64,000 nt of DNA, taken from contig NZ_LT670818.1 in assembly GCF_900129505.1 (NCBI RefSeq), forward strand, positions 2,294,001 through 2,358,000. Direction: 5' to 3'. Shown piece by piece: positions 39,641 to 57,702 of the stretch. A model generated the notes under the pieces. That model was not told where the DNA came from, ran no database searches, and saw nothing but the letters and a program-made list of their open reading frames with translations. Source of the DNA: Bradyrhizobium erythrophlei. Lineage in GTDB: Bacteria; Pseudomonadota; Alphaproteobacteria; Rhizobiales; Xanthobacteraceae. The position numbers and the translations under genes are program-made. Position 1 is the first letter of the stretch, and the number at the start of each line of letters is the position of its first letter.

Positions 39641-39730
39641 GGAGAGGTGGCAGAGTGGTCGAATGCACCGCACTCGAAATGCGGCATAGGTGCAAGCCTA
39701 TCGGGGGTTCGAATCCCTCCCTCTCCGCCA
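39641..39730 (+). tRNA. tRNA-Ser (anticodon CGA)
   Basis: 90 bases including an encoded CCA. Acceptor stem GGAGAGG pairs with CCTCTCC; anticodon stem CCGCA/TGCGG encloses loop CTCGAAA, anticodon CGA; a long variable arm (type II tRNA) and T-loop GGTTCGAATCC are present. It reads UCG codons. The 3' end is duplicated 3200 bases downstream, marking the edge of an island. Confidence 0.97.
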
Positions 39731-39903
39731 GTAAGTCTTTGATATAATTATATAAAATATATCTCGCGAAATTGCGCGGACACTTCCGCGGGTTAGTGCA
39801 GATACCTGCGGTAGTTGGCCACTGAGAGAGCGAATTGGTCGTTCTTTTCGCGATGAATGGAGGTCGTTTCTCATAACGCGACTTTGCCAGTGGCCTTCTC
39901 TGC
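39696..39903 (+). repeat. Left copy of the 208-bp tRNA-Ser flank duplication (attL-like)
   Basis: Begins inside the tRNA-Ser gene (GCCTATCGGGGG) and runs 173 bases past its end. It aligns without gaps to 42896-43103 at a constant offset of 3200, with 49 mismatches by hand count (about 76% identity). The tRNA end with GTAAGTCT and the segment ACTTTGCCAGTGG are the best conserved parts. Confidence 0.85.
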
Positions 39904-40142
39904 AATTGATGGCGTCAATGACGGCGCGATCTTGTATATCGCGCGGCCTTTTTGATTTCTCCATACCGGCGTTGGGCCCTTTAACGCTCTATCTCGACTG
40001 GATTCTGCAGACTGCGCGACAGTGGGGCGCTGCATTCTCAAATCTTCGGTCAATTCGAGCGCAACCACACTTGCGCAGCGCCGAGCGCAGTAGAATTTGT
40101 TAAGCTGCTGACAGAGAACGCGCGCATTCGCCAAACTCGACC

Positions 40143-42644
40143 ATGACGCAAACGGACATCAGAATTACCGACCTCATGACGCGGCTCACTGCGCTGGAAC
40201 GCGAGCGAGCGGCGATCGTAGCCGAGATCGAGACGCTGCGATCGGCAGCGAGTGAGCAGGCCGCTGCGATCAAAGTTATCCCTTCGGAAAAAGCCGGCGA
40301 TCTCGTCGATCGGAATTCGACAATCGAAAGCAAGATTGCCCTGTTCCGACGGCTTTTCCGCGGCCGTTCGGATGTCTTCCCTATCCGTTGGGAGAATCGC
40401 AAGTCGGGGCGCAGCGGCTACGCACCCGCCTGTGCGAATGAATGGCAGCGCGGGATTTGCGAAAAGCCGAAAGTCAAATGTTCGGCATGTCCAAATCAGG
40501 CATTCTTGGTCGTAGATGACGTGTCAATGGAACGTCATCTACGCGGGACCGACGCGAATGGCGCCCCGTTTGTTATGGGGGTCTATCCGATGCTTGCGGA
40601 TAATACCTGTTCGTTCCTGGCCGCGGATTTCGACGAAGGGGAATGGCGAAGAGATGTCTTCGCTTTTAGGGAGACCTGCCAGCGTCACGCAATTCCTGTT
40701 GCCATTGAGCGGTCGCGGTCCGGAAACGGTGCCCACGCCTGGATCTTTTTCAAGGAGCCAATACCGGCAGCGTCGGCGCGCCGTCTTGGGGCATTCCTTA
40801 TCACCGACACGATGGAACGTGTCCCCGATATCGGATTCGGATCCTACGATCGGTTTTTTCCGAGCCAGGATTCGATGCCGGCGGGTGGGTTCGGTAATTT
40901 GATTGCATTGCCGCTCCAGGGGCTTGCGCGCAGCTCTGGCAACAGCGTGTTCATCGACGAGTCTTGTTCGCCATATCTGGATCAGTGGACCTTCCTGTCC
41001 GCGGTTGATCCTATAGCGCGAGCGAAGGTGGATCATCTTATCGAGGAAGCAAGTGCATCTGGAAAAATTCTTGGCGTGCGTATCCCTCTCGTCGACGAAG
41101 ACGAAGAACCGTGGCTTGCCCCGCCGTCGCGCCGACAGCCGCCACCAGCAATCGACGGGCCCTTGCCAAGTGCGATCACCGTCGTACAGGCGGACCAGAT
41201 CTACATCCCGCGTCATGCGCTACCACCGTCGCTGATCGCCCGCCTTATTCGCCTCGCTGCGTTCCAGAATCCCGAATTCTATGCCGCACAAGCAATGCGC
41301 CGATCGACCCATGACAAGCCTCGGATCATCTCTTGTGCAGAGTTGACTAGCCATCACGTTGCTCTACCTCGGGGGTGCTCCGACGCCGTCTGCGATCTCC
41401 TCGCGTCACTTGGAATTGCAGTAACCATCGAAGATTGCCGCACCACCGGAGCGCCGATCCCATTCGCATTCACCGGCTCACTACGTCCCGATCAGAAACC
41501 CGCGATCGCAGCCCTGTTGCCGCACGATACAGGCGTGCTTGCGGCAACGACGGCATTCGGCAAGACGGTCTTAGCCATCCGGATGATCGCCGAACGCGGG
41601 TTGAATACGTTGATCCTCGTTCACCGCCGTCAACTGATGGATCAATGGATTGAGCGGCTCACGGCGTTCTCAAACCTGCCGCGCGATGCGATCGGCATAA
41701 TAGGCGGTGGTCGTCGTAAGCCGAAGGGTCAGGTTGATGTCGCCCTGATCCAGAGCCTTGTTCGCAAAGGAGAAGTTGACGATATCGTCGGAAATTATGG
41801 ACATCTCGTGGTCGACGAATGCCACCATCTGTCGGCCGTGAGCTTCGAAATGGTCGCGCGCCGCAGCAAGGCCCGTTACATCCTCGGCCTGTCAGCAACA
41901 GTGACGCGGAAAGACGGACATCACCCGATCATCGTTATGCAATGCGGTCCTGTCCGCCATCGCGTAGATGCGCGATCCGAGGCCGCCAAACGCCCATTTG
42001 ATCACGTGGTGCGGATCAGGGACACCAGCTTCCAACTCCAAGCCACGTTGAACGCCTCTTCCCCTTCCATCCAGGATGTTTTCAAGGCAATGGTCGCCGA
42101 TGAAGCGCGCAACGGTTTGATATTTGATGATGTCTTGCATGCACTCGAAGCAGGACGGTCACCTGTCGTGATCACCGAGCGGACCGCCCACTTGGAGATC
42201 CTTGCAAAGCGTCTCGAGCGTTTCGCGAGGCATGTGATCGTGCTGCGCGGTGGGCAAAGCGAGAAGCAACGCAGCGATATCGCCGCGCGTCTAGCCGCGA
42301 TTCCCCCGACCGAGGAACGCGTCATAGTCGCGACCGGGCGCTATCTCGGCGAGGGTTTCGATGATTCCCGTCTCGATACTCTTTTCCTTACTATGCCCAT
42401 AGCGTGGAAAGGTACACTTGCCCAGTATGCCGGCCGGTTGCACCGTCTCCACGACTCCAAGCGCGAGGTGATCATCTACGACTATGTCGACATGAACGTG
42501 CCGGTTCTGGCCCGAATGGCCGCAAAACGACGCGTCGGATATCAAGCAATCGGCTATAGGATTCTTGCTACCGGTGATTTGCTTTCCGGTCAGTCGGTCG
42601 CATCAGAGGCATCCGGTGAGGCGCCCGCAACTTTCTCCGTTTGA
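40143..42644 (+). CDS. TOTE-type archaeo-eukaryotic primase fused to SF2 helicase
   Basis: 833 residues. Short coiled coil (10-45), then an archaeo-eukaryotic primase-like domain (about 60-310) with a four-cysteine cluster (C97, C106, C113, C116), the metal motif ADFDEGEW (D162, D164) and RSGNGAHAW (H198). Then a superfamily 2 helicase: Walker A AATTAFGKTVLA (about 467-478), VVDECHH (DECH at 558-561), GLSATVTRKDG, and motif VI region TLAQYAGRLHRLH. This primase-helicase pairing is the core of the TOTE conflict systems predicted to act against invading DNA. All key residues look intact. No partner gene is beside it. Confidence 0.85.
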   Translation: MTQTDIRITDLMTRLTALERERAAIVAEIETLRSAASEQAAAIKVIPSEKAGDLVDRNSTIESKIALFRRLFRGRSDVFPIRWENRKSGRSGYAPACANEWQRGICEKPKVKCSACPNQAFLVVDDVSMERHLRGTDANGAPFVMGVYPMLADNTCSFLAADFDEGEWRRDVFAFRETCQRHAIPVAIERSRSGNGAHAWIFFKEPIPAASARRLGAFLITDTMERVPDIGFGSYDRFFPSQDSMPAGGFGNLIALPLQGLARSSGNSVFIDESCSPYLDQWTFLSAVDPIARAKVDHLIEEASASGKILGVRIPLVDEDEEPWLAPPSRRQPPPAIDGPLPSAITVVQADQIYIPRHALPPSLIARLIRLAAFQNPEFYAAQAMRRSTHDKPRIISCAELTSHHVALPRGCSDAVCDLLASLGIAVTIEDCRTTGAPIPFAFTGSLRPDQKPAIAALLPHDTGVLAATTAFGKTVLAIRMIAERGLNTLILVHRRQLMDQWIERLTAFSNLPRDAIGIIGGGRRKPKGQVDVALIQSLVRKGEVDDIVGNYGHLVVDECHHLSAVSFEMVARRSKARYILGLSATVTRKDGHHPIIVMQCGPVRHRVDARSEAAKRPFDHVVRIRDTSFQLQATLNASSPSIQDVFKAMVADEARNGLIFDDVLHALEAGRSPVVITERTAHLEILAKRLERFARHVIVLRGGQSEKQRSDIAARLAAIPPTEERVIVATGRYLGEGFDDSRLDTLFLTMPIAWKGTLAQYAGRLHRLHDSKREVIIYDYVDMNVPVLARMAAKRRVGYQAIGYRILATGDLLSGQSVASEASGEAPATFSV

Positions 42645-42895
42645 GGCGAATTATGTGGGATATTTTCGGACATCAATTTCGGGTCGGAGGGCCTAGGCGG
42701 ACGGGTCGACACGCTCGCCCAACGCGCAGACCTTGCCCGCAATTGTCAGTGCCGGCCCGATTCGGCCGACATCCCCACTGGTGAGAGAGCGGTGCGCCGC
42801 GAGCTTCTGCACCTTTTGCGGGATTTCTCTCAGTGGGCCATTTTGCGGCACATGAGCGGAAATTCAGCCGACATTTCAAAAGGATATTTTGAGAA

Positions 42896-43103
42896 GCCTA
42901 TCGGGAGTTTGAATCCCCTCTGGTCCGCCAGTAAGTCTCTGATATTACAATAGAAAATGTAACTGACTCAATTGTGCCGTCGCTTCCGCGGGTTAGCGCC
43001 CGCAGTTACGCGAGTAGGCCACCGAAAGAGCGAATTCCTCGCCCTTTGCACGTTCAGTGTCGGTCGTTTCTCAGAAGGCGACTTTGCCAGTGGCTTTCTC
43101 TGC
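42896..43103 (+). repeat. Right copy of the 208-bp tRNA-Ser flank duplication (attR-like)
   Basis: GCCTATCGGGAGTTTGAATC with TCCGCCAGTAAGTCT reproduces the T-arm, acceptor end and downstream flank of tRNA-Ser, but the acceptor strand has changed (TGGTCCGCCA), so it cannot make a functional tRNA end for this gene. Only the tRNA 3' half is present; nothing upstream of 42896 resembles the 5' part. Confidence 0.85.
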
Positions 43104-43168
43104 GAATGATGGTGGTGATTAGAAGACGTTCCAGCGTACGCGCCGCGCTAGCTATCGTAGCGCCTTGA

Positions 43169-44819: not shown

Positions 44820-44926
44820 AACTTCCCGGGGGAAATCACGGAGACCGTGCTGGCGATGTCATCGGAGACAAGGCCGAACAGGCTTACAGGCGGGGCGATG
44901 CATTGGAGAAGCGCCGGAAGTTAATG
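44820..44926 (+). pseudogene. C-terminal remnant of a tyrosine integrase (2), frameshifted
   Basis: Reads NFPGEITETVLAM in one frame and, after a one-base shift near 44860, VIGDKAEQAYRRGDALEKRR then KLM in another. Joined, the two give the standard end of a P4-type integrase (the arginine-tyrosine box lies upstream and is missing). It breaks off exactly where a copied piece of the primase-helicase gene begins. Confidence 0.7.
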
Positions 44927-44982
44927 ATCGTGCTGCGCGGTGGGCAAAGCGAGAAGCAACGCAGCGATATCGCCACGCGTCT
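44925..44982 (+). repeat. 58-bp copy of the primase-helicase gene
   Basis: 57 of 58 bases identical to 42235-42292 (constant offset 2690), which encodes VIVLRGGQSEKQRSDIA of the helicase domain. It is joined directly to the integrase remnant, so it records a recombination event involving the same gene or a close relative. Confidence 0.85.
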
Positions 44983-46004: not shown

Positions 46005-46331
46005 GTGAACCTTACGCGAGAGGCATCTGTCAGTGAAGGCGATTGTGTTGTCTGCGGGGGATGGCCCAAAGCAGATCAATCATCAATGCGGTTATTGATT
46101 GACAGCCTTCCACTGCAGGAGGTGGAGCAGATTTGCGACGGATGCTTACAGGCGTTTCGGACCAATTGCGTCGTTGGACCAAACCCTAGGCCGGACGGGC
46201 GGACAAGACATAGAGAGCGATCTAAGCGAACGATCTGTTTCGATAGACTGGCGCCGGGGGTTTATCGCCATTCAGTCTTCTGCTGGTTCATTGTCTTCCT
46301 CTATTTCAACTTCCCCTTCGCCGCAATTTAA
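46005..46331 (+). CDS. Possible small cysteine-rich protein
   Basis: GTG start two bases after the preceding stop. 108 residues with two cysteine pairs, CVVCGG and ICDGC, spaced about 28 residues apart, which could form a zinc site. The last 25 residues are hydrophobic and overlap the 3' end of the MmeI-like gene on the other strand, so the true gene may be shorter or absent. Confidence 0.3.
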   Translation: MNLTREASVSEGDCVVCGGWPKADQSSMRLLIDSLPLQEVEQICDGCLQAFRTNCVVGPNPRPDGRTRHRERSKRTICFDRLAPGVYRHSVFCWFIVFLYFNFPFAAI

Positions 46332-49213
46332 GGCAGCGCGAGCCAGATTTATCTCTAGCAATTTGGCCAATGCATCTTCTTCCGAGATGTCAGCAGGCCA
46401 TCCATAGGCTGCCGCGACAGCCGCATCGAGATCGCGATGGACGTCGGTGAGCCATTGCGGGCGCTGATTATAAAGGTTGGTTAGCGTTCGGGTTTTCAGC
46501 GTAACGGCGGCCTGCGCATCTTTCGGCAGGATACGGTCGGGATAGCCGGGGACAACTTCGGGCTCGATCTTCACGAGGTCAGGCGGATTGAGCCACGCGT
46601 TACGCAATTCATCGAGCCGCCTTGCCGCCCTCGCAACCGTCTGCGCGCGCGGATCGTTCTCGTAGTCCTTTGCGGGGATATTGGGCGTCAAGCCCTTGGG
46701 GAAGGGAAAGGTCCGAAACACGCGCGAACTGTTGTATCGACGAGCGGTCGGATGATTTCCGTAGGGAGAACCGAGAGCTCTAGCCCAGGCTATGTGGAAC
46801 CGGGAATGCAAAATACCGAAACTGGTGTCGTCTGATCGCGAAATAACAATAAGATTTTTGTCTGGAACGACGCCAGTGGGAAGCCACGCGAACACAGTGT
46901 GTGTCGGCGTCTCAGGAGTGGCAATTAACCTGTGATGCGAAGAAATGTTAGAGAACATCGCAGGCGCACGCCGAGCCAGAAGCCACCAGCTTTTCTTTTC
47001 TCCAACGGAGCCAGATTTCTCGCGTGCCGATTTTACAGGCTGAGCAATATGTTGAAATGGAGCTTCATAAAGACTCGCCGCACGCAAGCTCATTTCCCCG
47101 AAATTTATTATCCATTTGCCCGAACCGCGCGCGGTTACGTCTTCGCCATTCAACCAAGGGAATAAGACGTCCGAGTTTGGTCTACCATTCGGATTGAGCG
47201 GCAACATAAGCCACGCACGCGCGAGATCGCCGACAATATCAAACGCGCCTTTCTTAGAGATTCCGTTGAACGCCGTGTTGGCGTTTTCAGGAAGCGCTGT
47301 TGCCGTGGTCATATCTGTCGAGCGCGATGAAAGATCGGAATGGATTTTTTCTACCTTTCTTGAATCAAGCTCTGCAAATCCTTGTGGCTTTGGATGATCG
47401 AAGCAAACGAGAGATACGCGAACAGCAGCTCCTTCAATCGTCCACTCTTCATTTGACCATGCGGCAAAGATCCTGCCGGCCGCTGCGATGCGATCTAGCA
47501 CAGCGCGATTTGCGCCCCCTCGTATCGAATTCGTTGAAACTAGGCCAACACGAAGCGCAGCCTCAGAGCAGAGTTGCTTCTCCGCTTTGTCAAACCAGTA
47601 ACACACCAGGTCTGCGCCTCCTGGCACGCGTCCAAGGTAAATCTCTCTTAGCGTCTCCGTATAGTCCCCGCCTAAACTCTCCCTCATAAATTTATCGCCT
47701 AGAAATGGCGGATTGCCAACGATGAACTCGGCAGCGGGCCAACCAGCTTCGACAAACGATCCTTCGCTCCTTTTTGTGATCAGCGCGTCGCGGCATTCGA
47801 TCGCGTCAAGCTTACGTAGAATAGGTGGTGGCTCAGAATAAATTCCATTGCGCCTGCGCCATTGAATATCGCCGATCCAAATCGTGGTGCGAGCCAACTC
47901 GGCAGCAAATGGATTGATTTCGATGCCATGTACGATCTCAGGGCCTACCTCTAAGGCCCTGGGCGAAAGTTCTAGTGCCTCACACTCAAGTACGGCACGA
48001 TTTTCGAGGTCTTTTACGCCTTGAAGCGCGAGATAAAGAAAATTTCCCGATCCACATGCTGGATCAAGGATACGTATGTTGGCCAATCGGTGAAGAAATG
48101 CATCGCGCAACTCCATTGCTTGGGACCGAAGCTTGCGAGAAGCGGTATCGGCAGCGCGGCGATCCCCTGGACTCTGGCTTCGGGGGACAATACCTGACGC
48201 TTTCTCCGCAAGAGGAATGATCTGTGCCTTTATGCTCTCCCATTCAGCGCGCAACGGGCGCAGAATGACCGGCTCGACGATCATCATTATTTTTTCGGGA
48301 TCGTATAATGCGCGCCGATCTGCGCGCGCTTGTCGGGATCGAGGAAGCGTTCGAACAAAGTGCCGAAAATGGTAGGGTCGATCAGGCTCCAATCGAGATT
48401 TCCGGCCTCGACCAGCAACCCGATGTCGCCGTCATCAAGCTGGATGGCGCGCCGACCATCGAACAAACCGCCGTTGAAATGCGCAATATCGGTGAGGTCG
48501 AATTCGCCACCATTTTCCATAGCCTCGAACAGCGAATTGAAATATTCCTGCGCCTTGTCTGGTCGCTGCCCTGCACGCTTCAAAAGCTTCGGAAAGAAGC
48601 CTTCCGGTAAGAGCTTTACGCTGTTGGCAAAATAACAGAAGACGAGTTGGTTGACGAAATGCGCCACTTCCTCCGGCGTACCCCGGCCTTGTAACCGCAA
48701 TGCGATCGTAGAAAACTTGTCTGCGGCTTCTTTAGTAATGCCAGTCCGGGTTTCTTTCGGCCGCAGCCGTTCAGGATCATGAAAGACCGCCCAGAGAATT
48801 TCGCGCTTTTCCGGCAGTGCCAGACCGTCGAGTTCGATTTCATATTGCTTCGGGACTGTGTTCGTCCATGCGGTGCGAATGATAAAGCGATCGGTATCGC
48901 AGACGACCTGAAGCGGTGGATTTTCCAGTGCGGCGGCGTACCGCACCAGCTGGTCCATGGCGGCGTTGAGGTCACGCTTTTTCTTTTTATATTCCCACGC
49001 AAAGAAATTCTTCTTCCAAACATCGGCGAAGCCCTCGCCACCACCGGTCTTAGTGGCTCCCTTTTCAAACGTGAACCATTCGCCAGTTGGATCAGCCGAA
49101 ACCGGATCGTCGTGCTCAAACAACTTACACAAGTCGAGAAAGTGCGTATGCGCGGCAGCTCGCTCGGTGAGCGCAACGGGCTTCCATTTTTTTATGAATT
49201 CGGCGGGAGTCAT
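46272..49213 (-). pseudogene. MmeI-like restriction-modification gene (type IIL), split by a frameshift
   Basis: N-terminal frame (48287-49213, ATG 49213) gives a PD-(D/E)xK-type nuclease: FADVWKKNFFAWEYKKKKRD, then the helical spacer up to DWSLIDPTIFGTLFERFLDP and IGAHYT. The C-terminal frame (46272 to about 48305) continues DPEKIMMIVEPVILRPL, with methylase motif I ILDPACGSGNFLYLAL, motif IV IVGNPPF, and a target-recognition region to the C-terminus. Together about 980 residues, the usual single-chain size. One base is missing between Tyr-Thr and Asp-Pro near 48305, next to a run of six A. No partner gene. May be dead, or rescued by slippage, or an assembly error. Confidence 0.8.
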
Positions 49214-49474
49214 CAATTGGGACAGACGTTGCCAGGCGGGGCTTATTGGTCGACTTGGGCCCTTGATTAACCACTAGCTGGCATGATTCTCTAGGCCAGC
49301 GAGGATAATAAATGGCGAAGAATCCAAAATTGAAGGGACCTCAAACCCCACGGCATAGGCGGCGGCGGAAACGACCACATCCCTGATAGGGTGTGTATAT
49401 CTCCGGTTGTTCAGGACTCCGCTTGCTCCCGTTGGAAAGCGCCCATAATAATAGGCTTTTCCCGGAGATTCTTT
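49214..49474. other. Gap without recognised feature
   Basis: About 260 bases between the MmeI-like gene and the truncated gene at 49475. A ribosome site GGAGA precedes the latter. Nothing else recognised. Confidence 0.35.
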
Positions 49475-49789
49475 ATGGCTGAGGCGATATCTCTTCCAAC
49501 CCGCACGACCATTGAAGACGTTATAGCCCTGGTCAAATACCTCGCAACCAAACCCATGGGGGCGACGGTTGCTGAGGCCAAGTCTATTATTGACAACGGG
49601 CATTTGGACGCCCGAAAGCTGAGTGCCTACAAATACTGGGGTCTTGCGGAAGAGGCCGATGGCGGAAGGCTCAAACTGGAGCTTCGGCGCACCGCGGCGA
49701 AGGATAAGGGAGCCCATCTCGCCAAGGCTATGCGGGGGGTGATCGAATCCATCCCTGCCATCATTGGCGAGTTCACATTGTCGTTGTAA
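49475..49789 (+). pseudogene. Truncated winged-helix-like small protein
   Basis: Starts MAEAISLPTRTTIEDVIALV with ribosome site GGAGA. KYLATKPMGATVAEAKSIID, LDARKLSAYKYWGLAEEADG look like a winged-helix protein of a type seen with defence or transposon genes. From about 49760 the frame is antisense to a DNA methylase and reads IIGEFTLSL to the stop, so the natural 3' end is lost. The fused product would be 104 residues. Confidence 0.55.
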
Positions 49790-50025
49790 CTCCAGCCCTC
49801 ATTGCCTGTGTTATAAGGCGGGTCGATAAACACGCAGTCCACCTTACCGGCGTACAAGGGCAGCAGTGCTTTTAGCGCGTGTAAGTTGTCGCCGTGAATG
49901 ATGAGGTTGCCGTCAAGCGCGACGGCGCCAATCCCTTTTTTCGCGTGCGGCTCCAGCGGCCGAAAGGGCACGGCCAGGTGATGGTTGTAGACAAATTCTT
50001 TGCCTTTAAAGTTCAACTCAGTCAC
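49758..50025 (-). pseudogene. Type III-like DNA methyltransferase, N-terminal fragment
   Basis: GTG start 50025. Reads LNFKGKEFVYNHHLAVPFRP, GNLIIHGDNLHALKALLPLY, GKVDCVFIDPPYNTGNEGW: the start of an adenine-N6/N4 methylase of the Mod type with the catalytic DPPY motif. After NDNVNSPMM the sequence changes abruptly and is antisense to the truncated gene at 49475; the remaining 400-600 residues are gone. Not functional. Confidence 0.85.
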
Positions 50026-50267
50026 ATCGCCCCCGTCCCGAAAACATCGGTTTCGCCGACGCATAGAATCGGATGGTGATGGTGCTGGCAACAGCACTCC
50101 GGACGCGCTCGCCGCAAAGACCGGTGGCAGGCACAGATAATTGCGTAAAGTGCCGAATGATTGCGGCCGAACCTTAAGCTCGGGCGACGAAATGTGAAGA
50201 AAAATCTTCCATTTTGCAAAAATATAGGCCATAAATCCGCCTATACGCAATTGATGGATTCGCTCAA

Positions 50268-50993
50268 ATGCACGATACGGTCCAACGCCACCTACGCCTA
50301 ACTCTCGGCAAAGACTTGCTTATTGACCTTGAGGACAGGGTGCGGGCCGAAGCGGTCAAAGCCTTCGAGATGATTCGCGACCATTCGGGTTTGGACAAAA
50401 AGCGGGCCCGAGAAGCTGAAGGACAGGCGCGGTTCCGGATGTGGGAGCAAGGCTTCGAGGAAGTCTGTTCGTCACATGGTGGCCGCCTTCTTGACGGCGG
50501 CGTGATCCCAAACACCGAACTGAAGGTGTTTCAACCGTTCATGCGGCTTGAGCAGGGCGAAACAGGCATCATCCTGGGCCTCGCAGCTATGCCCGAGCCA
50601 AAGTCGATTCCGATAAAAAATAAGTCGCGGAGCGCCGGCGTTAGCCTCAACTACGATCTTTCCCCGCGCCTGGATCTCGACGGTATGGGACCGAAAGTCG
50701 GAGACGTTTTTGCTCTGCTGCTTGTGTCTCGCCATCGTGAGCGGGCTGGCCAAATCGAAGAGATTGCCGTCGGGATCATCGATTCGGCCTATGAGAGCTA
50801 CTTGTTCTATGAGTCACTCGACACTTTCCTAAGTGGTCACGGGGACGCTCCTGCTGCGGGCCCGGTCAATCCGACTTCGCCAACTCCGTCAGCGGCTCCA
50901 ATCAAGGTCTCGCTGAAAAAAGTCGTAAAGCCATTCGTCCCACCAGAAGCTCCGAAGCCCGAAGAAGAAGACGGCAGTGCGGAAGGCGATTGA
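50268..50993 (+). CDS. Hypothetical protein, partner of the XRE-ImmA gene
   Basis: 241 residues, unknown family. N-terminal helical part (LLIDLEDRVRAEAVKAFEMI), a middle region with two basic stretches (EPKSIPIKNKSRSAGVSLNY), then GDVFALLLVSRHRERAGQIE and a Pro/Glu tail. No membrane or signal segment. It ends 40 bases before the XRE-ImmA gene, so the two are probably one operon, which points to a partner or substrate of the metallopeptidase (inference). Confidence 0.65.
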   Translation: MHDTVQRHLRLTLGKDLLIDLEDRVRAEAVKAFEMIRDHSGLDKKRAREAEGQARFRMWEQGFEEVCSSHGGRLLDGGVIPNTELKVFQPFMRLEQGETGIILGLAAMPEPKSIPIKNKSRSAGVSLNYDLSPRLDLDGMGPKVGDVFALLLVSRHRERAGQIEEIAVGIIDSAYESYLFYESLDTFLSGHGDAPAAGPVNPTSPTPSAAPIKVSLKKVVKPFVPPEAPKPEEEDGSAEGD

Positions 50994-51033: not shown

Positions 51034-52230
51034 ATGCGTGTTGGAACGCCTGGATTCGTTCGGGAGCGATTGACCGAGGCTCGCGCCGCGCGACGACTTG
51101 CGAGCATGTCGGCGCTTGCTCGGCTTTTGAGCGTGAGCGCAAGCACGGTGACACGTTGGGAAGACGGCTCCAGTGCACCGGATTCTGATGCTCTCTCCGC
51201 ACTTGCCGGCGCGCTACAGGTACGACGCGAATTTTTCCTTCGACCTGTGTTTGATAGCACCCGGCCTGTCTTTTACCGATCTCTGGCGAGCACGCTCGTC
51301 CGGGACATCGACTATCAGCACGCTCAGATGCATTGGTTGCAAGAAATCAGCGCGGCACTGCAACATTATGTGGATTTTCCCAGTGCTGACATTCCTGATG
51401 TGCTCGACGGGGCGAGTTACAAACAACTTCGCGATGAGGATATCGAGAAGATTGCACTCGATTTGCGGCGCCACTGGAAAATTGGTGAAGGTCCCTGCAC
51501 GGACGTTGTGGCGCTGCTCGAACGCGTAGGAGTTGTCGTCGGCGCCATAGAAATGGGTACATCCAAGCTCGACGGGCTTTGCAGTTGGTCAGCTTCCGAG
51601 TGTCGGCCGCACATACTCTTGGCAACAGACAAGATGTCGTTTCCCCGGCGCCAAATGGACGCTGCGCACGAATTGGCCCACGCCGTTTTACATAAGGACG
51701 TCACAGAGGACGAGCTAAAGAAAAACCTCAAGCCAATCGAAACGCAGGCTTTTAGACTCGCGAGCGCATTTTTGCTGCCGTCTACAACCTATCCGCACGA
51801 GGTTCGGCGACCTTCGTTAGCGGCTCTTTTGTCTTTGAAAGAGCGTTGGCGCGTGTCCGTAAAAGCACAGATTAAGCGTCTTTCCGATCTCGATATCATT
51901 CCAGAGACTCATGCAACAGACCTCTACAAGCTCTACTCGGCAAAGGGCTGGAACCGGGAAGAGCCGCTGGATCGAGAGTGGCTGGTACCCGAGCCGCGAA
52001 GCCTAGCGGACGCGATGAATATTGTGGTCGACTCAGGCCTGCGCACCAAAGCAGACCTTCTCTCGGTCGAATTTACAATGTCGGCCGGCGACGTTGAGAA
52101 TCTGACTTGCCTCCCGCCCGGTTGGTTCTCAGCACGTACAGCGGAAGTAGTTCAGTTGAAGCAGGATTCGGCACGTATCATGCCGAAATCAGAATTTCCC
52201 GGTGTGGTCGTGCCCTTTAATCGAAAGTAA
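51034..52230 (+). CDS. XRE-type regulator fused to ImmA/IrrE metallopeptidase
   Basis: 398 residues. Helix-turn-helix at 20-65 (MSALARLLSVSASTVTRWED), then an ImmA/IrrE zinc peptidase with the HExxH motif in DAAHELAHAVLH (H212, E213, H216). ImmA-type proteins cut a bound repressor and so release phage, ICE or stress genes. The C-terminal 150 residues (ERWRVSVKAQIKRLSDLDII onward) extend beyond the peptidase. Lies downstream of an unknown partner gene and just before the retron. Confidence 0.9.
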   Translation: MRVGTPGFVRERLTEARAARRLASMSALARLLSVSASTVTRWEDGSSAPDSDALSALAGALQVRREFFLRPVFDSTRPVFYRSLASTLVRDIDYQHAQMHWLQEISAALQHYVDFPSADIPDVLDGASYKQLRDEDIEKIALDLRRHWKIGEGPCTDVVALLERVGVVVGAIEMGTSKLDGLCSWSASECRPHILLATDKMSFPRRQMDAAHELAHAVLHKDVTEDELKKNLKPIETQAFRLASAFLLPSTTYPHEVRRPSLAALLSLKERWRVSVKAQIKRLSDLDIIPETHATDLYKLYSAKGWNREEPLDREWLVPEPRSLADAMNIVVDSGLRTKADLLSVEFTMSAGDVENLTCLPPGWFSARTAEVVQLKQDSARIMPKSEFPGVVVPFNRK

Positions 52231-52308
52231 GTCCGCCAAATATACGCAATACCGTAGTCCTCTGCAACATCTTGCGTTGACCGCCTTTACCGCTACATTG
52301 GTCCACAA

Positions 52309-52434
52309 GCTTACAGGCAGATTTATTATCGTGTTTCGCGATATATGATCCAAAGTCAGGCACGCTGCTCCCTATGATCCATGATTGAAACATATGGCCC
52401 ATGGCCTATGCGACGCGTAGGAGTGCCTGTAAGC
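52309..52434 (+). ncRNA. Retron msr-msd non-coding RNA
   Basis: Between an 11-bp perfect inverted repeat, a1 (GCTTACAGGCA, 52309-52319) and a2 (TGCCTGTAAGC, 52424-52434), 22 bases before the RT start. Candidate branching G at 52320. msr hairpin TATCGTG TTT CGCGATA (52327-52343). msd about 52365-52423: a stem CTCCCTATG (52368-52376) against CGCGTAGGAG (52414-52423), adjoining a2, with an inner hairpin CATATGGCC CAT GGCCTATG (52391-52410). This matches the standard retron layout: a1, msr, msd, a2, RT. Structure is by eye. Confidence 0.8.
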
Positions 52435-52456
52435 CTTTTTCCTTTGGTGATTTGCG

Positions 52457-54282
52457 TTGTCGATCCTTCACACCCTCCGCACAGCAAAAACTCGATATGA
52501 TGTTGCAGCGCTGCTCGGCTACAAGCCGAGCGCTTTGTCCTATATCGTCTTTCAAATTCCAACGGCGGAAAAATACAAGACCTTCGAAATTAAGAAAAAA
52601 GGCGGCGGCAAACGTCGCATCGATGCGCCGATTCCGATGCTCAAGGGACTTCAGAGGCGACTCGCCGACGTTCTGTACGAATGCCTTCGCGAGTTAGAAG
52701 AGCCCGAGAAACGCAAGAACAAGTTGTCACATGCGTTTCGCAAGGACTACTCCATAATCACCAATGCGAAAGCGCATAAGTCGCGCCGTTACGTGTTAAA
52801 TCTCGACTTGCAGAATTTCTTTCCTAGCTTGAACTTTGGGCGCGTCCGCGGCTTCTTTCTCAAGAATAATCAGTTCAAGCTGGCCGAACCTGTAGCGACC
52901 ATTCTCGCACAGATTGCTTGCAATGATGGAGTATTACCCCAGGGAAGCCCATGCTCGCCGATCTTGTCCGAGCTATTGACGCATTTCCTCGATATAAGGC
53001 TGGTCAAATTGGCCGCCAAAAACCAATGTTCCTATACGCGCTATGCTGACGACATCACATTCTCGACCAACCAGAAGGAATTTCCAGTGGCCCTTGCGGT
53101 CGCGGTGGGCGAAGGTTGGATACTAGGTGATGAGGTAAAATCTCGCATCGAGGGTGCTGGATTTACGATAAACGACACAAAAACTCGTATGCAGGTGAGG
53201 GGGAGTCGCCAAACCGTCACCGGCCTCACGGTCAATGAAAAAGTCAATGTACCGCAGCGTTACTGCAAACTTGCACGCGCGATGACGCATTCATTTCTCG
53301 CCACCGGCGCCTACAAGCGCGACGGGGTAGATGACTCTTCTGTTCCGCGCCTGGAGGGCGTCCTTGACCACATCTATCACATTAAGGAACGACAGATAGA
53401 TATTGCGATCGACGCTGAAAAGAACAAGGAAAAGCGGCACAAGCTGCATGCCGACCGGACCAAACATAAGAACGAATATCCCTCGGCGATACGCCTCATC
53501 TACTTCCAACTCGTTTTCTTCAAGCACTTCATCGATCCGTCAAAGCCGCTCATCATTTGCGAAGGACCGACCGACTCAATCTACCTTAAGAGTGCGATTC
53601 GCAAACTGGCGGCACTCCATCCGAAGCTGGCTTCGACTAAAGACGGCAAGCTTTCCCTCGATATTCATTTCTTCAAATATTCAAAGCAATCGAAGGATCT
53701 CCTGCAGCTTCGAGGCGGCTCACCTGACCTCAAATTCTTCCTCGAAGCATGGAGAGACAAGCTTGCTAAGTTCAAACACCGCCCGATGAAGCACCCGGTG
53801 ATTGTGCTGATCGATAATGACGATGGCGCAACTCAGATATTTAAGCTGGCTCAGAGCAAGAAGTTTGGCGTCACCATTGGTCACGCGACGGACTTACCTT
53901 TCTATCATCTTGGCGGCCATCTCTATCTTGTCAAAACGCCGATCAAGGGTCCCGACAATAAGTCCTGCCCCGAGGATTTTTCGACCCGGCCCTGCTGGCA
54001 ACCAAGATCGACGGCAAGACCTTTAATCCCGACAAGGAGCACGACGCGCCTGGCGAGTTCGGAAAGGTCGTCTTTGCAGAGCGTGTCGTGCGGCCGCAGG
54101 CGGGCAGCATCGACTTCTCAGGCTTTGATCCCCTTCTCACTCGCATTGACGCCGTACTCGATGATTACGCCAAACGCAGGGCTACGGGCCCAGCGCCCGC
54201 GCCATCGCCGGCGGTCCCAGCGGTGTCGGCACCGACAAAGAAGAAGCGCGCGAAGGCAGCCGCCGCCGTGGCCACGCCCTAA
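52457..54282 (+). CDS. Retron reverse transcriptase-TOPRIM protein (Ec67-like), frameshifted
   Basis: TTG start at 52457, forced by an in-frame stop at 52448. RT with retron hallmarks: NAxxH (NAKAH, 103-107), NLDLQNFF (D117), YADD (196-199) and VTG (254-256, in TVTGLTVN). A C-terminal TOPRIM domain has LIICEGPTDS (E369) and VLIDNDDG (D453, D455), the fusion of the Ec67 type, where TOPRIM is the effector. After F508 the frame is lost at a run of five T (53977-53981); six T would restore FFDPALLATKIDGKTF and the C-terminus ending KKKRAKAAAAVATP, stop 54282. The unshifted frame ends at 54481 with non-protein-like sequence. Confidence 0.9.
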
Positions 54283-54360
54283 CGTGGGCTGCGCAAGCCA
54301 ATCGATTGATCTAGGACGGAACCGAGCTGGCGGGGGTGCGGCCGGCCGCGTAAATCCGGT

Positions 54361-54708
54361 TCAGGACTCGAGCCGGGAGGCGTCAATGCTTTTCCCGAAC
54401 CTCAACACGGCACTGATGGAATCAAAGATGAAACGCGCCTCCGCCTTTTCCAAAAAAACGTTATCGTGGGCGAGGCTTTGATTTTTGCGGATATGGTTGA
54501 ACTTGTCGAAAAGTCCGATCGAGTTCCTCAAAAGTTGTTGGGTCATCTCCCGCAATTCCCGCTCTTGAATGACACTCTTGACGTATTTTCCAAGCCTGCT
54601 CAGCAGGCCACCTGCGATACTTGAATTCCATAACATTGGATCGGCGAAACTCACCGCGCCCCGGGGCGCGAACGCTCGGTCGAGCTTTCTGGCTATCTCC
54701 GGCTCCAT
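54361..54708 (-). CDS. Small protein resembling the C-terminus of abortive-infection proteins
   Basis: 115 residues. The segment FNHIRKNQSLAHDNVFLEKA and the closing EARFIFDSISAVLRFGKSID resemble the C-terminal helical domain of abortive-infection family proteins. Its start overlaps the end of the serine recombinase gene by 16 bases in another frame, so it may be a 5'-truncated gene cut by insertion of the recombinase module. Resemblance is from memory, not a search. Confidence 0.5.
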   Translation of the reverse strand: MEPEIARKLDRAFAPRGAVSFADPMLWNSSIAGGLLSRLGKYVKSVIQERELREMTQQLLRNSIGLFDKFNHIRKNQSLAHDNVFLEKAEARFIFDSISAVLRFGKSIDASRLES

Positions 54709-56384
54709 AGAACGTCGGACTTACGCGTAAGCATCGCCGTTTTCGCTAACGCGGTTGTCTCCGTATCACCTTCCAGGACCTTTCCGACCAGATCGGGTGA
54801 CAACCATGCGAGATGAATCAGGTTGCTGACATAGTTGTCGGTGATGCCTTCACGTACCGCAATTTCCGCCATCGACCGCGATTTGCCCGTCGTGAGTTGT
54901 TCGAACCAGACCAAGGCGCGTGCGATCGCCTTTACGACAACGGCGTCAGGTGTCTTGCCATTCTGATCGTCGAAAACGAGTTTGCCAGAGCCGCCGCCTG
55001 GGGCGGCAGGAACAGTCGCCTCAAGTGAGATGATGTTGTCTTGGCCGTTGTCCTGGGATGGCTCCGCGAATGTGTCAGTCAACACCGCCAGTAACTGGTC
55101 TCGATTGATTGAGATATTTAGGCTAGTTGGACTGACAGTCACGCGCGCGAGAATATCCGCAACATTCTGCGCCATGGGTGCGGCGGACGTCAGCGAATCC
55201 GCGAACTTGCTTGCGATTTCAAGGCCGCTGCCAATCTCTGCCGGCCGACACCGCGTTTCGCGAAGCAAGGTCGATATCTGGGTTTTATCCGTCAGAAACC
55301 TTTGCAATTTCGCCAGCACGAGCTCGTCGATCATGACTGCGGGTAGCCGGAGCCTTGGTACGCTAGCCGCTGCGACGGAACGCCCATTCCCGTCTGACGT
55401 CACGTAATATCGGTAACGCTTGCCATTTTTGGTCGCGTGGCTGGAGACGAGCCGATTGCCGGCGTCGTCATAAATGAGCCCTGCGAGCAGACTTTTGCTT
55501 TTTGCGTTAGTCCGGGCCCGATTTTCGTGATGGTTGGCCCCAAGCTGGGCCTGGACGGCGTCCCATGTCGCGGCGTCAACCAGGGGCGGATGCTGACCAG
55601 GATACCGCACACCTTTATGCTCAATCTCCCCTATATAAAGAGGGTTCGACAGGATCTTGTAGAGGTGACCGCGCGCAAAGGACAAGCCGCCGACCGCTCG
55701 GCCTCGGGGCGTCGCATATGGCTTGGTCTTGAGATGGAGGCGAACGAGTTCGGTCTGGACCCGCTGGACGTTTTTGAGTTTCAGAAACAGGTCAAAGATC
55801 GTCCGGACGGTCACGGCCTCGGTTTCATTGATGGTGAGGGTCCGGTCCTTGCGGTCATAGCCGATCGGCACCCAGCCTCCCATCCACATGCCCTTCTGCT
55901 TGGATGCGGCGATCTTGTCGCGGATCCGCTCACCCGTGACTTCGCGCTCGAACTGCGCAAAGGACAGAAGGACATTGAGGGTCAGGCGCCCCATCGAGGT
56001 CGTGGTGTTGAATTGCTGGGTGACCGAGACGAACGAGACGCCCGCCGCGTCGAAGATTTCGACGATTTTCGCGAAATCCGCCAATGACCGGGTAAGCCGG
56101 TCCACCTTGTAGACCACGACCACGTCGATCAGGTGGGATTGGATATCGGCCAGCAACCTTTTGAGGGCCGGTCGTTCCGTCGATCCGCCTGAATAGCCGC
56201 CATCGTCATAGAGGGAGGGAAGGGGAGTCCAGCCCTCGTGCCGCTGACTCTTTATATATGCGTCACAGGATTCGCGTTGCGCATGCAGCGAATTGAAGTC
56301 CTGTTCCAGTCCCTCTTCGGAGGATTTCCGGGTGTAGATCGCGCAGCGAAAAACCTTGGTCCGGGGCGGGGCCGGATTACGCAT
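54693..56384 (-). CDS. Large serine recombinase
   Basis: 563 residues. Resolvase catalytic domain with CAIYTRKSSEEGLEQDFNSL (Ser21 as likely nucleophile), VVVVYKVDRLTRSLADFAKI and REVTGERIRDKIAASKQKGM; then a recombinase domain and zinc-ribbon region, and a C-terminal helical part rich in Asp. Integrase of mobile islands. Its start overlaps the DUF2924 gene by eight bases, and DUF3489 lies further upstream, a trio frequent in Bradyrhizobium. Intact by length. Confidence 0.93.
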   Translation of the reverse strand: MRNPAPPRTKVFRCAIYTRKSSEEGLEQDFNSLHAQRESCDAYIKSQRHEGWTPLPSLYDDGGYSGGSTERPALKRLLADIQSHLIDVVVVYKVDRLTRSLADFAKIVEIFDAAGVSFVSVTQQFNTTTSMGRLTLNVLLSFAQFEREVTGERIRDKIAASKQKGMWMGGWVPIGYDRKDRTLTINETEAVTVRTIFDLFLKLKNVQRVQTELVRLHLKTKPYATPRGRAVGGLSFARGHLYKILSNPLYIGEIEHKGVRYPGQHPPLVDAATWDAVQAQLGANHHENRARTNAKSKSLLAGLIYDDAGNRLVSSHATKNGKRYRYYVTSDGNGRSVAAASVPRLRLPAVMIDELVLAKLQRFLTDKTQISTLLRETRCRPAEIGSGLEIASKFADSLTSAAPMAQNVADILARVTVSPTSLNISINRDQLLAVLTDTFAEPSQDNGQDNIISLEATVPAAPGGGSGKLVFDDQNGKTPDAVVVKAIARALVWFEQLTTGKSRSMAEIAVREGITDNYVSNLIHLAWLSPDLVGKVLEGDTETTALAKTAMLTRKSDVLWSRR

Positions 56385-56940
56385 TTCGCCCGCTCCTCGT
56401 AGACTTCACTTTTGAAACAGGCTCAGTGCTGACGTCAAGAGTTGCAGGCAAGTTAGTTCGCCGCGGCCCCGACGCGTTCTTGTTCCCAGATGGCGCCCGC
56501 TTGATGCCAAAGAAAGCAAACCCGTTCCAGTTGGTACCGGTAATGGCATTGGCGACGGCGGAGAGTGACTTGTAGGTCCGACCGTTCCACTGGAATCCCT
56601 CCGCCAATGCTGTGACGGTATGGGTGGTGCCCTGCCATTGCCGGATCATTTGCGTGCCGGGTTTAATGCGGCTGCTGCCTAGCATGGCGTTCGCGTCACC
56701 ATTTCGAACGGCGTTGGCGATTTCCCGCAGCCGACGCTTTGTTGCGACCGATAGTCCACCATAGACCTCGACCTGCATTTGATACGCCACCGCCCGCGCC
56801 AAAAAATTTCGGCGCAATGATTTGGGCGCGGGATGGCCAAACAGCGCCTTCCATCGGTTCCGGAGTTCGAGAAGGCTGAGATCGCGCAAACGCCCGATCT
56901 CAGCCTCAAGAGCTGCATCTTCGATCGTGCCACGTGGCAT
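56377..56940 (-). CDS. DUF2924-domain protein, recombinase companion
   Basis: 187 residues from ATG 56940 (MPRGTIEDAALEAEIGRLRD). Contains LLELRNRWKALFGHPAPKSL, RRNFLARAVAYQMQVEVYGG and later GFQWNGRTYKSLSAVANAIT, GTNWNGFAFFGIKR, typical of DUF2924. Such proteins accompany serine recombinases and are thought to bind DNA. Overlaps the recombinase start and begins only four bases after the DUF3489 stop, so the three are coupled. Confidence 0.88.
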   Translation of the reverse strand: MPRGTIEDAALEAEIGRLRDLSLLELRNRWKALFGHPAPKSLRRNFLARAVAYQMQVEVYGGLSVATKRRLREIANAVRNGDANAMLGSSRIKPGTQMIRQWQGTTHTVTALAEGFQWNGRTYKSLSAVANAITGTNWNGFAFFGIKRAPSGNKNASGPRRTNLPATLDVSTEPVSKVKSTRSGRNA

Positions 56941-56944
56941 TCGA

Positions 56945-57601
56945 TCAAGCCTTTCGCGCCGCCGAGGTCTTCTTACTCTTTGCGGCTTTGGCCGTGCCGA
57001 TCCGGTAGTTTCTGACACCGTCGATCTTCTCGGAGAGGAGGGCGAGTTTCAGCTTTTTGCGCACGGTGCCGGCGAGAAATCCGCGTACCGAGTGCTTCTG
57101 CCATTGCGTCTCCTTGACCAGGACATCCAACGTCGCGCCTTCCGGGCGCTGTAGGAGGGCGACGATCTTGTCCTGTTTGGAGTTTGGTTTGGCTCGATCG
57201 GGCGATGGCTTGGTTGTCCTCGTGGAAACGGCAGCGGTCTTCTCTGCCCTCGATCGCTTGGCGCGGCCTGGCCGCTCGTTCGACTTGGGTTGCGTGGATA
57301 CATCTGGGCCTGCGACTTCATTGGGATCAGCCGCGGCATTATCGTCCGGCGCCTTGGCCAGCTCGATCGCTCTAAGGCCGGCCTTCGTAATCCGCAACGA
57401 ATAAGGCCTGTTATCGTCGTCGCGCCGCCATATCGGCATGTCGTGCTTGGCGCGAAGCTCTTGCAGAAGCTTTTCGTTCAAGAGCCTGTCGACCACCTTC
57501 TTTGCGGCGTTGCCTTTGAGATTTGCAGGTAGAAGGGCTGCATGGTCGGCTCGTTGCGAAGCCGAAGACAGAATCAGTAGTTGAGTATCGGAGAGCTTCA
57601 T
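56945..57601 (-). CDS. DUF3489-domain protein
   Basis: 218 residues from ATG 57601, with a textbook AAGGAGGATTTT ribosome site. N-terminal LSDTQLLILSSASQRADHAA and a winged-helix region KVVDRLLNEKLLQELRAK, a basic linker (residues 95-150), then the DUF3489 C-terminus QDKIVALLQRPEGATLDVLV, KETQWQKHSVRGFLAGTVRK. Upstream member of the recombinase operon; probably DNA-binding. Confidence 0.88.
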   Translation of the reverse strand: MKLSDTQLLILSSASQRADHAALLPANLKGNAAKKVVDRLLNEKLLQELRAKHDMPIWRRDDDNRPYSLRITKAGLRAIELAKAPDDNAAADPNEVAGPDVSTQPKSNERPGRAKRSRAEKTAAVSTRTTKPSPDRAKPNSKQDKIVALLQRPEGATLDVLVKETQWQKHSVRGFLAGTVRKKLKLALLSEKIDGVRNYRIGTAKAAKSKKTSAARKA

Positions 57602-57702
57602 AAAATCCTCCTTCAAGGTCGTGCGGCATCATCGCCGCCACGACCGCAACCCCGCGGAAGACGCAAGCGCCGGCGGGGAGGAGGCTTAAAGAAAAATGAC
57701 CC

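Follow-up and report, generated by a model that had tools for sequence, protein, structure and literature searches.

Two questions are raised by a reverse transcriptase (RT) gene preceded by an inverted repeat in Bradyrhizobium erythrophlei: whether it belongs to a phage defence retron of the Ec67 type, as proposed by the first-pass annotation, and whether this copy could still work. Positions refer to the window, i.e., the whole stretch of 64,000 nucleotides that was analysed (Table 1). The account favoured here, with a probability of about 93%, is that of a type I-C (Ec67/Eco2-like) retron in a low-GC Bradyrhizobium stretch, in a copy that would make msDNA without a working effector, unless the break in its effector frame is an assembly error. 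The Bradyrhizobium-like host proposed from the letters alone was right at the genus level.

The protein was assigned by family models. Residues 1-514 matched the PADLOC model RT-Toprim_I-C (3.4e-195), the protein scored 608.7 bits against NCBIfam NF038237 (retron_Ec67_fus, cut-off 450), and the solved Eco2 (PDB 9lm3 and 9i2f; PMC12405507), used as reference throughout, was a homologue at 365 bits with 39% identity (202/522 positions). The RT motifs NAxxH (here NAKAH), YADD and VTG had been correctly read by the first-pass annotation, and the TTG start at 52457 was in register with the starts of the homologues P0003, P0005 and P0006. Fused to the RT was a Toprim domain with its E, D and DxD residues; in the alignment E369, D373, D453, D455 and E506 corresponded to Eco2 E374, D378, D460, D462 and E515. 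Two other Eco2 positions differed: C504 stood opposite the metal-binding S513, in a variable column, and H328 opposite R332, in a gappy loop, R332 being a trimer contact required for Eco2 defence according to passages of PMC12405507. Judged by its sequence, the locus is a type I-C retron (PADLOC label) of the RT-Toprim Ec67/Eco2 family, a new copy and an ordinary relative of a known kind, Ec67 being among the known retrons in passages of PMC8934634.

Table 1. Features of the retron and of its neighbours, with positions in the window.
Feature	Position	Strand	Basis or remark
MmeI-like type IIG restriction-modification gene, broken	46272-48392 and 48287-49216	-	two overlapping frames
Type III DNA methyltransferase, N-terminal fragment	49627-50250	-	
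RmrT and RmrA genes	50268-50993 (RmrT); 51034-52230 (RmrA)	+	directly upstream of the retron; PADLOC names; RmrA with HTH and IrrE-like peptidase domain
Putative retron cassette	52268-54591	+	81% DNA likeness to Bradyrhizobium sp. 132 (L039); retron and end of the Abi_C gene
msr-msd non-coding RNA, full model match	52306-52437	+	held-out covariance model R1, 92.7 bits, E 2.3e-24
a1 arm, 11 bp	52309-52319	+	perfect complement of 52424-52434; covarying helix in 31 relatives
Predicted branching G (equivalent of Eco2 rG15)	52320	+	A-G-A invariant in 31/31 relatives; 2',5' bond expected by analogy with Eco2
msr hairpin	52327-52343	+	covarying helix 2, 96.5% of cells paired in relatives; window aligned to the helix
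Predicted msd template, 68 nt (Eco2 67)	52355-52422	+	placed by matching the Eco2 limits
a2 arm	52424-52434	+	repeat with a1; GAGT (T is the first a2 base) invariant in 31/31 relatives
RT-Toprim protein, family-like part, residues 1-508	52457-53980	+	TTG start; PADLOC, NF038237, Eco2 identity
T-run holding the frame break	53977-53981	+	
Conserved C-terminal Toprim tail, in another frame	53980-54282	+	holds the conserved GK lysine
Abi_C gene, shortened	54361-54708	-	convergent to the retron
Large serine recombinase, DUF2924 and DUF3489 genes	54693-57616	-	right of the retron cassette end

Upstream of the gene, the 11-bp perfect inverted repeat cited in the retron call was found as described, its a2 arm ending 22 bases before the TTG. 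Hairpins had also been read in the msr and the msd, and only the first of these readings stood: the msr hairpin was present and covaried in relatives, and the msd stem and its inner hairpin were not recovered as common elements. For this retron type an msd of about 67 nt, folded as one long DNA hairpin, is expected. The predicted template length in the window (68 nt) fits, and predicted msd folds varied among the window and 17 relatives, that of Eco2 included; as these folds disagreed, an msd hairpin common to the relatives was dropped as a candidate. The limits of the template and the branching G were transferred from Eco2, for which passages of PMC12405507 give the branch at G15, a hairpin at 20-42, a duplex at 52-62 and an msd of 67. 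Rfam at gathering score returned no retron match in the window, its sole match being a tRNA.

Conservation of the RNA was assessed in an alignment of 31 related RNAs, from which the window (L022) was deliberately held out and L019 was omitted as a near-copy of L018. Over the a1/a2 helix and the msr hairpin, 95.7% of the cells were paired, with double-sided changes in 19 of the 21 pairs. None of 500 shuffles reached the observed value on any of five measures, and pairing fell to 28-40% when partners were slid by 1-3 columns. The arms had been found by searching for inverted repeats, which biases helix 1 toward pairing, but the msr hairpin (96.5%) was not so chosen. Hand placement was used for the arms of four loci (L069, L072, L073, L074), in two of which (L069 and L074) a repeat other than the a1/a2 pair was the longest perfect one. 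The first of the two refuting conditions set with the retron call came out in its favour, the inverted repeat being kept with compensatory changes in homologous loci; a repeat of at least 8 bp lay at a similar upstream place in all 20 RT-Toprim loci first compared, the window included. By sequence and covariation, the predicted branching G is likewise conserved, and one msr hairpin follows it.

The covariance model trained without the window recovered its RNA over the full span given in Table 1, and found no second match (E up to 1) in the window's own 9.18-Mb genome. At the same limit the model gave no match in 34 other-RT loci, whose RTs were intron-like or scored below the Ec67 cut-off (10 of these loci were typed). 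A database of msr-msd covariance models exists (the PADLOC paper, PMC9252829, in the passages concerned), so that RNAs of this kind have already been modelled elsewhere.

The RT phylogeny agreed with the RNA. A quick tree built on 60 RT rows placed all 32 RT-Toprim rows on one side of a branch with SH-aLRT 99, and in it the window RT adjoined L012 from Bradyrhizobium sp. 132, inside the RT-Toprim retrons together with an E. coli Eco2/Ec67 copy. The 28 non-Toprim rows comprised 10 typed by PADLOC and 18 labelled by likeness; L023, L025, L055, L001, L002 and L005 (no RT frame extracted) and L031 (wrong frame picked) were absent from the tree. RT-Protease (type XI) and RT-TIR (type XII) retrons have an RT domain related to that of the window, but they carry a different effector, fell outside the RT-Toprim branch, and their loci gave no match to the RNA model of the window family. 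Could the locus nevertheless be a non-retron RT beside a chance inverted repeat? Repeats of 8-13 bp were also present upstream of many of the compared non-Toprim RTs, and part of these repeats may belong to RNAs of other retrons. Against chance stand the covariation and the absence of model matches at the 34 other-RT loci, and the held-out match and the tree refute this reading, which we regard as extremely improbable. The Ec67-type call was thus upheld by the family models, the RT clade and the conserved a1/a2 repeat.

Besides the retron, the window's own genome contained 16 further RVT_1 matches, several with identical scores, which were taken for putative group II intron RTs; one RT (C1:1467063-1467475) was split over two overlapping pieces.

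A single open reading frame running to 54282, the end given by the first-pass annotation, was not confirmed, and the frame break had escaped that annotation. The RT-Toprim frame departs from the family sequence after residue 508, within the T-run, and the conserved tail resumes in another frame, up to the stop at 54280-54282, so that 54282 is the end of that other frame. Of 32 aligned rows, 29 carried the GK lysine of this tail; the other three (the window frame, L043 and L073) stop short of its column. In the family search of the genus, 13 of the copies over cut-off ended at profile position 571 or 572 of 572, against 518 for the window copy. The GK lysine was taken as the catalytic lysine named K562 in passages of PMC12405507. 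The numbering there does not fit: in the 586-aa Eco2, position 562 holds D, and the conserved GK lysine is found at 546.

A complete effector frame bears on function, and not on family assignment. According to passages of PMC12405507, alanine at catalytic residues abolished Eco2 defence; the window effector should therefore not work as it stands. As assembled, and as far as the letters tell, the copy should combine a working RT and RNA with a dead effector, since the conserved Toprim lysine lies past the frame break. The complete frame with its catalytic lysine, absent from the window copy, was present in the otherwise identical P0002, a protein of 608 aa from a cluster of 7 members whose longest contig is 7150 bases. 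As P0002 and the window do not differ on either side of the break, an intact copy of the window allele is on record, and the break is either specific to the strain or an assembly error.

An assembly error would leave the retron call unchanged, with a natural gene that is intact and confers full Ec67-type defence, and we give this reading somewhat less than an even chance. It draws on the identity of P0002 on both sides of the break and on the position of the break in a T-run. It also draws on a survey of the best 120 of 5791 homologues, in which the 16 proteins lacking the lysine motif showed no break at the place of the T-run. On the other side, the genome is a single contig of 100% completeness, 12 other RVT_1 matches in it have open frames of at least 309 aa with no inner stop, and P0002 possibly comes from the same strain as the window. 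The listing of P0002 as an otherwise identical intact allele also speaks against a true inactivation.

The surroundings of the retron bear on both readings. GC content was 51% in 52001-54000, against 60-68% in 2-kb windows across the first 29 kb. Since DNA likeness to Bradyrhizobium sp. 132 (L039) spans only 52268-54591, the retron looks like a cassette, as far as this comparison goes. To its left lie RmrA/RmrT and restriction genes (Table 1). At the convergent Abi_C gene, the L039 counterpart is an open frame of 259 aa, with a stretch of 81 aa that is 89% alike. That neighbouring genes are broken as well (the MmeI-like gene in two overlapping frames, Abi_C shortened) argues against an assembly error at the T-run and in favour of a genuine loss of function of the retron in this strain, within a defence island undergoing decay. 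No intact identical copy of the MmeI-like gene was found among the best 120 of 7660 matches, which speaks for true decay of that gene; as an indirect check on a general indel problem of the assembly, it gives no direct evidence on the RT-Toprim gene.

True inactivation, to which we assign barely under even odds, is further in line with RT-Toprim copies broken elsewhere (L023 in the RT near YADD; L043 and L073 ending early in the Toprim part) and with the loss of the lysine motif in the 16 homologues mentioned above, some of which may be contig-end pieces. The window RT and RNA, which are without visible damage, count against it.

Alternatively, the T-run could be a reversible on/off switch of the effector, through replication or translation slippage, in which case a population would mix armed and disarmed retrons with the same msDNA. 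The broken and intact alleles agree on either side of the break, and a T-run at the same codons was also present in the two closest relatives. The run is short, however, and no long run occurs there in four more distant Bradyrhizobium copies of the same alignment. Such a phase switch, sought among the same best 120 of 5791 homologues, was not seen, no other broken copy breaking at the T-run, and we hold a switch to be very improbable.

Two repeats were observed farther to the left. The 3' part of a tRNA-Ser (cga) gene (39641-39730) opens a direct repeat of 219 nt (39694-39912 and 42894-43112; 77%), with its copies 3.2 kb apart, a possible integration site. A second direct repeat, of 58 nt and 98%, was found at 42235-42292 and 44925-44982.

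The family was present over cut-off in 14 of 265 Bradyrhizobium genomes and in 6 of 397 genomes of the host order, the window's own included in both counts; the latter search gave 5 new loci. Comparison loci were also drawn from plasmids (6 of 23 matching records, all from Pseudomonadota, Gram-positive ones being left out) and from E. coli (2 of 538 matching genomes). A scan of viral contigs with P0002, using six word patterns favouring close relatives, gave no relative, and the phage collection gave 2 records; neither source showed a phage link for the window's branch. A literature search pairing retron or retron Ec67 with Bradyrhizobium found no paper in the library searched, and the words Toprim and Bradyrhizobium were absent from the main text of PMC12548924.

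By analogy with Eco2, a1 would pair with a2 in the RNA, and the RT would start on the conserved G after a1, reverse-transcribing some 68 nt of the msd into DNA linked to the RNA. Were the copy intact, the complex of msDNA and protein would keep the Toprim domain inactive until a phage infects, and the RNase activity of this domain would then halt the infected cell. Passages of PMC12405507 propose that DenB degrades msDNA and thereby frees the RNase. In the window copy, msDNA would still be made and the effector would not work, as the break in the Toprim frame precedes the conserved lysine, unless this break is an assembly error. With a good RNA model, these results add a soil and root-nodule genus to the range of a retron type whose structure is solved. 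If real, a naturally occurring copy in which the effector is broken while RT and RNA are intact would provide ready material for msDNA study without toxicity.

Compared with Eco2, the window shares the RT-Toprim fusion, the Toprim E/D/DxD/E residues and the order of the RNA elements (a1, G, about 4 nt, msr hairpin, msd, GAGT, a2), with an msd of predicted 68 nt against 67. It differs in its msd sequence and predicted folds, and in having its Toprim tail out of frame. The copy of E. coli NCTC8623 (L074) was identified with Eco2 by eye, its protein matching the PDB 9lm3 alignment and its RNA fitting the Eco2 limits. In this locus, the RefSeq start of the gene (L074:2597-4477) lies inside the msr-msd RNA (2548-2680), and the start giving 586 aa lies downstream at 2717. 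Both E. coli retrons (L073 and L074) stand beside phage portal and terminase genes, whereas that of the window stands beside serine recombinase and restriction genes. Among the closest known systems are two retrons of the genus itself: the protein is 85% identical to that of Bradyrhizobium sp. 132 (L039, the same as L012) and 75% to that of sp. Rc3b (L040, the same as L014), and DNA likeness to sp. Rc3b was found only within 52307-54190, as it was only within the cassette for sp. 132. Both retrons have the same RNA as the window and, unlike it, intact frames.
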